NCBI RefSeq assembly: GCF_009729555.1
Contig: NZ_WODC01000002.1
Span: 62,001-126,000 of the forward strand
DNA from: Pseudodesulfovibrio alkaliphilus
Lineage (GTDB): Bacteria > Desulfobacterota > Desulfovibrionia > Desulfovibrionales > Desulfovibrionaceae
Direction: 5' to 3'
Length of the DNA: 64,000 nucleotides
The number at the start of each line of letters is the position of its first letter. The stretch's first letter is position 1. The notes beneath the pieces are model-generated. The model searched no databases. It saw only the letters and a program-made list of their open reading frames with translations, and was not told the DNA's origin. This document shows, piece after piece, positions 36,373 to 38,685 of the stretch. Made by a program: the position numbers and the translations under genes.

Positions 36373-36464
36373 GGAGAGGTGTCCGAGTCCGGCTTAAGGA
36401 GCACGCCTGGAAAGCGTGTTTGGGGGGAACTCCAACGGAGGTTCAAATCCTCTCCTCTCCGCCA
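36373..36464 (+). tRNA. tRNA-Ser (anticodon GGA)
   Basis: The acceptor stem GGAGAGG pairs with CCTCTCC. The anticodon loop CTGGAAA sits on stem CACGC/GCGTG and gives anticodon GGA. There is a long variable arm (TTGGGGGGAACTCCAA), typical of class II serine tRNAs, the T arm contains GTTCAAATC, and CCA is encoded. It borders the AT-rich reverse-transcriptase insert. Confidence 0.96.
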
Positions 36465-36475
36465 CTTGATAATAG

Positions 36476-36520
36476 AACCTTGAATCTTGGCAATGAGCTG
36501 AGATTCAAGGTTTTATTCAT
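36476..36520 (+). terminator. Terminator after tRNA-Ser
   Basis: AACCTTGAATCT (36476-36487), a 13-base loop, AGATTCAAGGTT (36501-36512), then TTATTCATTTC. The 12-bp stem is perfect and AT-richer than other terminators here. Confidence 0.75.
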
Positions 36521-36577
36521 TTCTTTTCAAATGGTTTGCTATGCTTGGTGAAGCCTGTAATATCTTCCTGCAAGGAA

Positions 36578-37489
36578 TTATCGGCGTTGGACTAGCCTTA
36601 TGTATTGCTCTTTTCCGTCTATGCGGCTTTCTTCTTTCGATTTTTCACTATCTGTCATGTAGTCCTTAAAAAGTCCAAATTGGTGCTTTTGTGCCCTGAC
36701 TGACTTTTTATAATATCTAGATACACGCACTTTATTGGTGTTTACATTTATCCCTGTAACAAGTTTACCTTTATATGGGGTAAAAAGTTCTTCTTTTTCG
36801 TCGTTGAGGAGAAGTCCGAAGGAAGTGATAATTTCTTTGGTCTTCCTTATAAAGCCTTCTGGAATTCTCCGCCCCGAAAAAGTCAGGTCATCGATGAAGC
36901 GTGTGTATGTAAGACCATAGTCACATGCAAGGCTGTTAAGTCTATTATCCAAGGGAAAGCACAAAATATTAGTTAGAACGGGGCTTGTTGGAGAGCCTGT
37001 GGGGAGTTTGTATTTGTATGTTGTTAATTTGGTTAAAATGTTAGAGACTGGAGGGGAGCAGCCTAATTGTTCTGCAAGCAATTTGTATATTCTGTTTGAG
37101 GAGATCGACGGGAAGAATGAACTGAAATCTAAGCAGTAAACATAGGGAGCGGCTGCATGACGCTTAGCGTTATCGATGTGGCATCGCCTTTGGACTGCGC
37201 CGTAAGCAGCAGGATGCAAAGGGTGTTTTTGAAGCTGTCTAAGGATTGCAGTTTGGACTTTTCTGAGAGCACCTGAAGGTACTGATAGTACACGAACTGC
37301 ACCGTTTTTTTTTGTGATTTCTTTCTTGTGATAGTTAGATTCGATGTTGCCGCACAGTTCTTCAAGTTGACTAAGAGGGTAGCCAAGGATTCTGGCTAGA
37401 GATTTTGGACTCTTTATTCCAACAATGGGACACAAGGGATCAGGCGGCGTCACAAGAGATGGTGTCCATTTCGTAAGTGATGATGGCAA
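36578..37489 (-). CDS. Retron-type reverse transcriptase
   Basis: Up to 303 residues with the reverse-transcriptase motifs in order: CLDFSSFFPSI (first catalytic Asp), LPTGSPTSPVLTN, then YTRFIDDLTFSG, which holds the catalytic Asp-Asp near residue 198. The later KGKLVTGINVN matches the VTG motif of retron enzymes. The YxDD box reads FIDD. The N-terminal KSPKSLARILGYP and NGAVRVLSVPSGALRKVQ also fit retron RTs. The ATG overlaps the HTH gene by 50 bases; internal GTG or TTG starts are possible. Base composition is visibly AT-richer than the flanking genes. Confidence 0.9.
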   Translation of the reverse strand: MPSSLTKWTPSLVTPPDPLCPIVGIKSPKSLARILGYPLSQLEELCGNIESNYHKKEITKKNGAVRVLSVPSGALRKVQTAILRQLQKHPLHPAAYGAVQRRCHIDNAKRHAAAPYVYCLDFSSFFPSISSNRIYKLLAEQLGCSPPVSNILTKLTTYKYKLPTGSPTSPVLTNILCFPLDNRLNSLACDYGLTYTRFIDDLTFSGRRIPEGFIRKTKEIITSFGLLLNDEKEELFTPYKGKLVTGINVNTNKVRVSRYYKKSVRAQKHQFGLFKDYMTDSEKSKEESRIDGKEQYIRLVQRR

Positions 37490-37751
37490 AGAGATTTTTT
37501 TGTAGTTTGATAAAGTCTTCTCTGTCGCTGCCTATGAGTTCGGAAGGGACCTCGCTTGCAACCAAGTAGAGTAGCTCTTTAGAAACTCCTAATCGATCAG
37601 CAAGCGTCTCAACAAGTTTAACACTCATTGTTTTCTTACCACTTTCAACAAGAGATAAATAATTTTGAGAAATGCCTAAGCACTGAGCCATGTCGCCCTG
37701 CGAAAGGCCTTGGCTTGCTCGTATTGTTCTAATCAGTTTTCCAATGGTCAT
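37440..37751 (-). CDS. XRE-family helix-turn-helix protein
   Basis: The 103-residue protein has a Cro/CI-type HTH in residues 4-60 (IRASQGLSQGDMAQCLGIS, then LSLVESGKKTMS). The last 40 residues (from about 65) are acidic and helical without a known domain. It lies directly upstream of the reverse transcriptase on the same strand and overlaps its start. It may repress the locus or act as effector or antitoxin. AT-rich like its neighbours. Confidence 0.88.
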   Translation of the reverse strand: MTIGKLIRTIRASQGLSQGDMAQCLGISQNYLSLVESGKKTMSVKLVETLADRLGVSKELLYLVASEVPSELIGSDREDFIKLQKNLFAIITYEMDTISCDAA

Positions 37752-37813
37752 TATATAATCCTATTTGGTTGATTTCAGGGCTTGGCAGTCTTTCATCATC
37801 TGACTCTTGTTTC

Positions 37814-38083
37814 TTAGAGCATCAGGCCAACAAGCTCTTGGATTCTTTCCAAGAGACGAGGCCACCAACGTAGCACATACATGGACCAAAATAATGCTGC
37901 TTTCGCACGCATCGTCTTCCTTTTTAGGTCAGATAAGGCCCGTTGCGTAACTACGTCAGATGAAACGAGTTCATCCGTAATCTTAAGTTTGAATCTTCGC
38001 TTTTTCACAAGTCCATATAGCAACTCGTGAGACTCCTCAATCAATTCGAGGTGTCGCTTTTGTTCATGAATTGGTTTTCTCAT
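37814..38083 (-). CDS. Small protein of unknown function in retron-like locus
   Basis: The 89-residue protein is highly basic (VKKRRFKLKITDEL, LKRKTMRAKAAL) with an aromatic, hydrophobic segment near the C-terminus (LFWSMYVLRWWPRLL). It starts at an ATG preceded by AAAGGAAT. No family is recognised. It is the first gene of the three-gene minus-strand set and directly follows the structured non-coding region. A membrane-active or nucleic-acid-binding role is possible, but nothing in the sequence decides. Confidence 0.7.
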   Translation of the reverse strand: MRKPIHEQKRHLELIEESHELLYGLVKKRRFKLKITDELVSSDVVTQRALSDLKRKTMRAKAALFWSMYVLRWWPRLLERIQELVGLML

Positions 38084-38149
38084 ATACTACTTATTCCTTT
38101 CCACGAGTAATTCTCGCAGGGTTATGGCAGTTGTACTGCCCGTTAACAT

Positions 38150-38398
38150 TTACTCTTTGCTCTAAGACTGCTGCCACCATGAAGTGTAGACGCCTAGCGT
38201 CAATGAACCTACACGCCTTCGCAGTTATTGCGAGTTGTGTTGATATCACTGTTCGCTCGGGGGCGACAGTTCCACCTGAAAACAGGTGGCGACCGTTTGG
38301 TCACAAACCTAACCGGAGTTAGGGCGGCCATAAAAGCCGGAACGGGGCTTACGTACAATGGAAAACCAATGTCACTTAAGACGGATTTCAAAGAGCAA
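38150..38398 (-). ncRNA. Candidate retron msr-msd RNA (stem-loop array)
   Basis: On the minus strand TTGCTCTTTG (38389-38398) can pair with CAAAGAGTAA (38150-38159), forming ten pairs with one G-T, as expected for the a1/a2 arms of a retron RNA. Between them are six stem-loops in a row: 38308-38323, 38291-38302, 38272-38289 (perfect 7-bp stem, four-base loop), 38248-38270, 38219-38233 and 38184-38214 (nested stems). No coding frame fits. It lies upstream of the small protein, HTH and RT genes on the same strand. The usual branching guanosine next to a1 is not obvious, so limits are provisional. Confidence 0.55.
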
Positions 38399-38546
38399 TT
38401 GACTGGCAGAAGCGCCAGCTGTTCTTTTGTCAATTACATGGTTTGTTCCAATGGTCAATGCTTTTCAATCTTTTTTTTATAAAAAAGTTACTTCTAGTCA
38501 ATTCGTGGCTGTGCCAGATAACTTTGATGAGTTGTTAGACAGCCCC

Positions 38547-38574
38547 AAAAAAAAGCGCGTTCTTGAGAACGCGC
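38547..38574 (-). terminator. Terminator of the SRP RNA gene
   Basis: On the minus strand GCGCGTTCT and AGAACGCGC form a perfect 9-bp stem (38555-38574), followed by eight T residues (A-run 38547-38554). Confidence 0.9.
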
Positions 38575-38581
38575 CTTTGAG

Positions 38582-38668
38582 TGGAAGCCGGACACCCGGT
38601 GGCAATCGATACCGCTGCTTCCTTTCGGACCTGACGGGGTTTTCAACACCGCCGCCGCCCGGCTTCCC
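38582..38668 (-). ncRNA. ffs: 4.5S signal recognition particle RNA
   Basis: On the minus strand the apical SRP core CAGGTCCGAAAGGAAGCAGC (38614-38633) is present, with a GAAA tetraloop and the asymmetric loop that binds Ffh. The ends GGAAGCCGG and CCGGCTTCC pair to close a single long hairpin, the small bacterial type of about 87 bases. A promoter lies upstream and a terminator directly downstream. Ends are approximate. Confidence 0.95.
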
Positions 38669-38685
38669 TCTGATCGGGAAAGGAC

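Follow-up and report, generated by a model that had tools for sequence, protein, structure and literature searches.

Gene content and class of the cassette

The window, by which we mean the whole 64,000-nucleotide stretch of the Pseudodesulfovibrio alkaliphilus genome that was analysed, carries a compact cassette on its minus strand. In order of transcription, it contains a structured non-coding RNA, the gene for an 89-aa basic protein, the gene for an XRE-type HTH protein, and the gene for a retron reverse transcriptase (RT). The cassette and its immediate neighbours are laid out as follows:

36373–36464, plus strand: tRNA-Ser(GGA), bordering the cassette on the left, behind pyrD and conserved across the genus
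36472–36516, plus strand: hairpin resembling a terminator, separating tRNA-Ser from the convergent RT gene
36578–37489, minus strand: retron reverse transcriptase, 303 aa, with NAxxH, FIDD, and VTG motifs intact (PADLOC models and solved retron RTs)
37440–37751, minus strand: XRE-type HTH protein, the type VI partner, 103 aa (PADLOC HTH_VI)
37814–38083, minus strand: small basic protein, proposed effector, 89 aa, net charge +8, with an amphipathic C-terminal helix
About 38150–38420, minus strand: conserved non-coding block (sequence conservation and folding)
38431–38458, minus strand: probable promoter TTGACC-16-TAATTG, read from alignments (a TTGAC-like box is kept in L019 and L020)
38577–38670, minus strand: SRP RNA gene (ffs), right neighbour, outside the retron (Rfam RF00169, 4.6e-12)

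The RT open reading frame (ORF) starts with TTG and overlaps the 3′ end of the HTH ORF by 50 bases, and the GC content across the cassette is 0.43–0.52, compared with about 0.62 in the surrounding DNA. An earlier note on this DNA had described RT, HTH, and 89-residue ORFs on one AT-rich strand, and all of these are present. The promoter candidate at 38431–38458 falls below threshold in a consensus scan. A further promoter-like sequence, CTGAAA-17-TATAAT, lies directly before the HTH start (37750–37778, minus strand) and could be a second promoter.

The RT reads as a retron enzyme throughout, with the motifs NAKRH (an instance of NAxxH), LPTGSPTSP, FIDD, and LVTGINVN, and its structural relatives are the solved retron RTs Ec86, Ec67, Kva2, Ec83, and Ec78. 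Its best PADLOC model is RT_VI (226 bits, 1.4e-67), in a near tie with RT_III-A (225 bits, 2.7e-67), and we assign it to type VI despite that tie because the HTH partner and the RT tree settle the matter: the best model for the HTH protein is HTH_VI (66 bits, 5.7e-19), and in the tree the RT groups with the HTH-bearing RTs of L019–L022 and L024 (branch supports 87–99). No type III-A phosphoribosyltransferase effector adjoins the RT, the neighbours being the HTH and small-protein genes and then tRNA-Ser and the SRP RNA. The earlier note's proposal of a retron of an HTH-containing class is thus borne out by both best models and by the phylogeny that it had suggested. The grouping with group II intron or Abi RTs that it had named as fatal to the idea is not seen, as a group II maturase model (9.7e-14) and Drt models (2.6e-10 or weaker) match the RT far under their cut-offs. 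Its description of the host also fits a sulfate (sulfite) reducer, in that the genome has a dsrA scoring over the curated cut-off.

Retrons combine an RT, a structured RNA, and partner proteins into a bacterial cassette with a probable role in defence against viruses. Taken together, these assignments support a retron that looks complete and belongs to the catalogued type VI (PADLOC RT_VI/HTH_VI; Mestre et al. 2020), with the same order of parts as other members: non-coding RNA, small protein, HTH protein, and RT. It differs from the class at large in that its RT lies near the class edge, with RT_III-A scoring almost equally, and in that its RNA and small protein are recognisable by sequence only in two relatives from the same family.

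A structured RNA with covarying stems

Retron RTs prime on the msr portion of a structured RNA and copy the msd portion into msDNA. The conserved non-coding block upstream of the small ORF contains the following elements:

38150–38398, minus strand: msr-msd RNA between the outer pairing segments (conservation, folding, and covariation)
38389–38398, minus strand: a1 segment UUGCUCUUUG, partner of a2 (93% of cells are paired across the three sequences)
38150–38159, minus strand: a2 segment CAAAGAGUAA, pairing with a1
38325–38339, minus strand: msr stem-loop CGGCUUUUAUGGCCG, with one compensatory pair change
38308–38323, minus strand: msr stem-loop CCUAAC-UCCG-GUUAGG, with three compensatory pair changes and all cells paired
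38291–38302, minus strand: stem-loop GACC-AAAC-GGUC (folding; all cells paired in two of three aligned sequences)
38272–38289, minus strand: stem-loop CCACCUG-UUUU-CAGGUGG (three-sequence stem pairing count)
38184–38214, minus strand: probable msd hairpin GUGUAG...CUACAC, read from alignments
38402–38420, minus strand: invariant 5′ hairpin opening the conserved block (alignment and stem pairing count)

The RNA from 38115 to 38435 is more stable than its dinucleotide shuffles (z = −3.9, 0/100); among the relatives, the corresponding value is −3.3 in L004 and a weak −1.1 in L003. The block is 77–79% identical at the DNA level in two relatives, and its outer helix, a long-range pairing of a1 with a2 over 10 bp, keeps eight pairs invariant in all three sequences. 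For the remainder we rely on local stems only, because the RNAalifold global fold differs from the single-sequence fold. In the three-sequence alignment, 92% of cells in the chosen local stems are paired and five pairs are changed on both sides, compared with 43% or less paired and at most one double change when the partner is slid by one to three columns. The best-covarying stem reads CCUAAC/GUUAGG, CCUGGC/GUCAGG, and CUCAAC/GUUGAG in the three sequences. The probable msd hairpin has a different stem in relatives (AAGUAU/AUACUU in L004) and was left out of the formal pair count, since MAFFT misregisters its arms.

A search of the RNA against Rfam returned no retron family. Covariation over three sequences gives good support to the stems, and to nothing beyond them. 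The homologous stem-loop region upstream of related RTs that the earlier note had called for is found in both relatives. Its interval of 38100–38550 for the upstream region stops at the edge of the SRP RNA terminator: the retron's own part of it is the structured block, reaching to about 38420, plus the promoter, and the SRP RNA terminator and gene take over from about 38551.

Relatives and genomic setting

Across 297 genomes of the order, a close RT is found in only two, one in the same genus (L003/L019, 69% identity) and one in the same family (L004/L020, 64%); both carry all four parts, with HTH proteins about 79–81% and small proteins 53% identical to those of the window. A DNA search with the RNA through 348 genomes of the class matched the same two and no others. 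Beyond these, Collinsella was the only match in a scan of genome contigs; neither the window RT nor the RNA core matched anything in viral sequences, and the RNA had no match in plasmids.

The chromosomal slot from tRNA-Ser to the SRP RNA gene is variable, as can be seen by comparison across the genus. Of 36 genomes of the genus, 35 share the arrangement in which tRNA-Ser follows pyrD. In G120 and G196 the SRP RNA gene follows about 100–200 bases past tRNA-Ser, and then the same transporter gene, without a retron; the SRP RNA gene is also inverted in these two genomes. In G087 (L047) the slot is filled by other cargo, about 1 kb with a solute-binding-protein-like ORF. This cargo lies between two similar terminator hairpins, at 1876–1910 and 2840–2875 of L047 (GCTTACGG..GAAAATCGTAAGCC), as if one had been duplicated on insertion. 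The retrons of the two close relatives sit elsewhere, in tyrosine-integrase islands by tRNA-Pro and tRNA-Arg, the latter also with a P4-like primase. From the variable slot (36464–38577) and the integrase islands of the relatives, we conclude that the cassette is mobile cargo. A search for an attachment repeat found none, with no copy of the tRNA-Ser 3′ end at the right border, and we accordingly claim no attachment site.

The small protein of the window

The small ORF, which starts just behind the a2 segment, encodes a real protein, as judged from dN/dS values of 0.27–0.36 among the three relatives and an excess of changes at third positions; it evolves faster than the HTH gene. Searches of PADLOC, Pfam, NCBIfam, PHROGs, and the PDB gave no family or structure match. 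AlphaFold2 predicts one long helix with moderate local (pLDDT 76) and poor global (pTM 0.31) confidence. The protein is amphipathic (p 0.018), and its hydrophobic residues are no more clustered than expected by chance (p 0.68).

The DNA of two stretches is nearly invariant among the three relatives: GATGAACTCGTTTCATCTGA within the small ORF (37995–38075 region), where conservation goes beyond coding need, and GATGATGGAAGACTGCCAAGCCCTGA between the small ORF and the HTH gene (37760–37830 region). Either could possibly be an operator or an RNA element.

A small, mostly basic protein is a constant part of type VI loci

To place this protein in context, we compared about forty related cassettes whose RTs have RT_VI affinity, drawn from the phylum, the family, phages, and viral contigs. 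All ten of the HTH proteins examined scored best with HTH_VI, and nine of ten RTs did so with RT_VI, the exception being the L033 enzyme, which prefers RT_other. Wherever the upstream DNA of a type VI locus is intact, a small ORF immediately precedes the HTH or RT gene; these loci span several phyla and include P2-like and Mu-like prophages. The encoded proteins are 31–113 aa long; 24 of 26 are net positive, and in 24 of 26 the most hydrophobic 18-mer lies in the second half, preceded in most by a charge of +4 to +15. The ORF also shows protein-like dN/dS values in most other pairs, two near-identical HTH-less pairs (L147/L149 and L135/L136) being uninformative.

These properties can be written as a fixed feature: an ORF of 44–112 aa whose stop lies at most 90 nt from the next gene, with a hydrophobic 18-mer in its C-terminal half and a charge that is not negative. 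Of 27 type VI upstream regions, 23 have this feature, compared with 2 of the 23 regions upstream of other retron RTs and 5.5% of shuffled regions. Since the definition was drawn up with the proteins already in view, more weight belongs on the contrast between these groups than on any exact rate. L139, L025, L019, and L135 fail the test, and have a small ORF nonetheless. What is shared is a property and not a family, given the null family and structure searches and the failure of hhalign to match the small proteins of subgroups A3 and A4. A candidate homology across subgroups, ITDELVSSD with VTVSDSHVS (L021/L022), was likewise unsupported by hhalign.

The same gene order as in the window is seen in P2-like and Mu-like prophages. 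Klebsiella phage ST147-VIM1phi7.1, Peduovirus P2_2H1, Burkholderia phage KS5, and Shewanella phage MuM16-1 carry a 48–67-aa basic protein before the HTH gene. These elements differ from the window locus in being prophage-borne and in that their proteins lack detectable similarity to the 89-aa protein. Among 5426 complete E. coli genomes, 99 carry a cassette matching that of P2_2H1 (L069), in each case on a chromosome.

The earlier note had called the small protein undescribed and a possible effector, and as a kind of partner it is not undescribed: PMC8541194 (2021), citing Mestre et al., already names small auxiliary proteins as a feature of type VI, calls the MuM16-1 retroelement type VI-like, and reports a TMpred transmembrane segment in its small protein. 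As for what these proteins do, we found no report of the function of the type VI small protein, or of the type VI mechanism, in the open-access literature.

Helices that are both basic and amphipathic are a usual feature of RNA-binding adaptors as well, which counts against reading the small protein as an effector. It could instead be a scaffold that binds the RNA or msDNA and has no toxic activity, with the HTH protein, a host-encoded protein, or the RT complex acting as effector. The strongly basic N-terminal parts, like those of nucleic-acid-binding adaptors, and the single long helix predicted for the window protein would suit such a role. We nevertheless consider it fairly improbable, as the frankly hydrophobic stretches of several members (L135 LTCIIVALISFALVASIC, L139, and L132) are more like those of membrane peptides, a likeness to which the predicted transmembrane segment of the MuM16-1 member adds.

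The HTH gene is absent from several lineages

The HTH gene, after which type VI is named, is absent from a number of otherwise type VI-like loci: L011/L097 and L017/L098 (from the genus of the window), L099, the prophages L043/L147–L150, and L135/L136. An HTH model search of the 14-kb stretches L097–L099 found no HTH gene. We left L026/L100 out of this count, as its contig ends at the HTH position. All of the HTH-less loci keep a small ORF, encoding a hydrophobic or amphipathic helix, just before the RT, as well as a structured upstream region, and they include lineages with strong RT_VI scores (286–290 bits). The pair L097/L098 is 79% identical over 296 bases spanning the region upstream of the small ORF, and the small ORF itself has a dN/dS of 0.36.

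On a 62-row RT tree, a single change (support 88) separates the HTH-bearing and small-only rows from all others. Parsimony assigns four changes to the small-only state, at least two of them forced by well-supported branches. At least two to three RT lineages thus appear to have lost the HTH gene, a number that is uncertain given that several branches of the tree are weak.

This pattern bears on two further accounts of the HTH protein. It might itself act as effector, or provide the DNA-binding half of a toxin–antitoxin pair, with the small protein as its antitoxin or adaptor; most loci retain both genes, closely packed into an operon where the HTH and RT ORFs overlap, and low-scoring antitoxin-type HTH models also match the HTH protein. 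An antitoxin that has lost its toxin should itself be lost, however, and the strongly scoring HTH-less lineages keep the small protein, so that this account seems distinctly improbable to us. Alternatively, the HTH protein might repress the operon, such that loss of msDNA leads to derepression and the small protein is made only then. The XRE fold does resemble phage repressors and antitoxins, and the position of the small ORF just behind a2 means that RNA folding could also affect its translation. With no operator identified, and with HTH-less lineages ruling out a general switch of this kind, we regard a repressor-based trigger as highly unlikely.

A model in which the small protein is the effector

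Because the small protein persists when the HTH gene is lost, it is the better candidate for the effector of the two, and we lean, with some caution, toward a model in which it would be a membrane-active effector held in check by the RT–msDNA complex, with the HTH protein as an accessory. Its small size, basic charge, and hydrophobic or amphipathic helix would suit a membrane-active toxin. We propose such restraint for the window locus by analogy with other retrons, in which the RT–msDNA complex holds the effector until a phage disturbs the complex (PMC12548924 and PMC12948488).

Under this model, a promoter at about 38440 would give one transcript, carrying first the msr-msd RNA and then the small protein, HTH, and RT genes. 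The RT would start synthesis from the msr and use the msd as its template for msDNA. The small protein, in which a basic segment leads into a helix that is amphipathic or inserts into membranes, would in its free form disturb the inner membrane and stop the infected cell. The RT–msDNA complex, alone or together with the HTH protein, would keep it inactive by binding or by limiting its expression, until phage damage to the msDNA or to the complex released it. The HTH protein could then serve as a dispensable operon regulator or msDNA reader. The production of msDNA, the toxicity and its membrane target, the neutralisation, and the trigger are what we infer for this locus.

The proposed effector would resemble the small membrane toxins of type I toxin–antitoxin systems, which are also short, basic, and amphipathic or membrane-spanning. 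In those systems the antitoxin is an antisense RNA, whereas here it would be the RT–msDNA complex, and we found no homology between the two.

Implications for type VI retrons

The window locus is a further type VI retron with a partner already known as such, and its HTH-less relatives would be a variant of the class. A bolder reading, which we find plausible without quite backing it, is that type VI has been defined by the wrong partner: its constant part would be a family-less basic membrane peptide toxin, the smallest retron effector known, with the HTH protein optional and the HTH-less relatives forming an RNA–peptide–RT variant. If this is true, HTH-based annotation overlooks that three-part variant. 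If the small peptide is indeed the effector, databases that demand an HTH gene would miss part of the group, and the question of how the HTH class functions would become testable with a gene of 150–270 bases.
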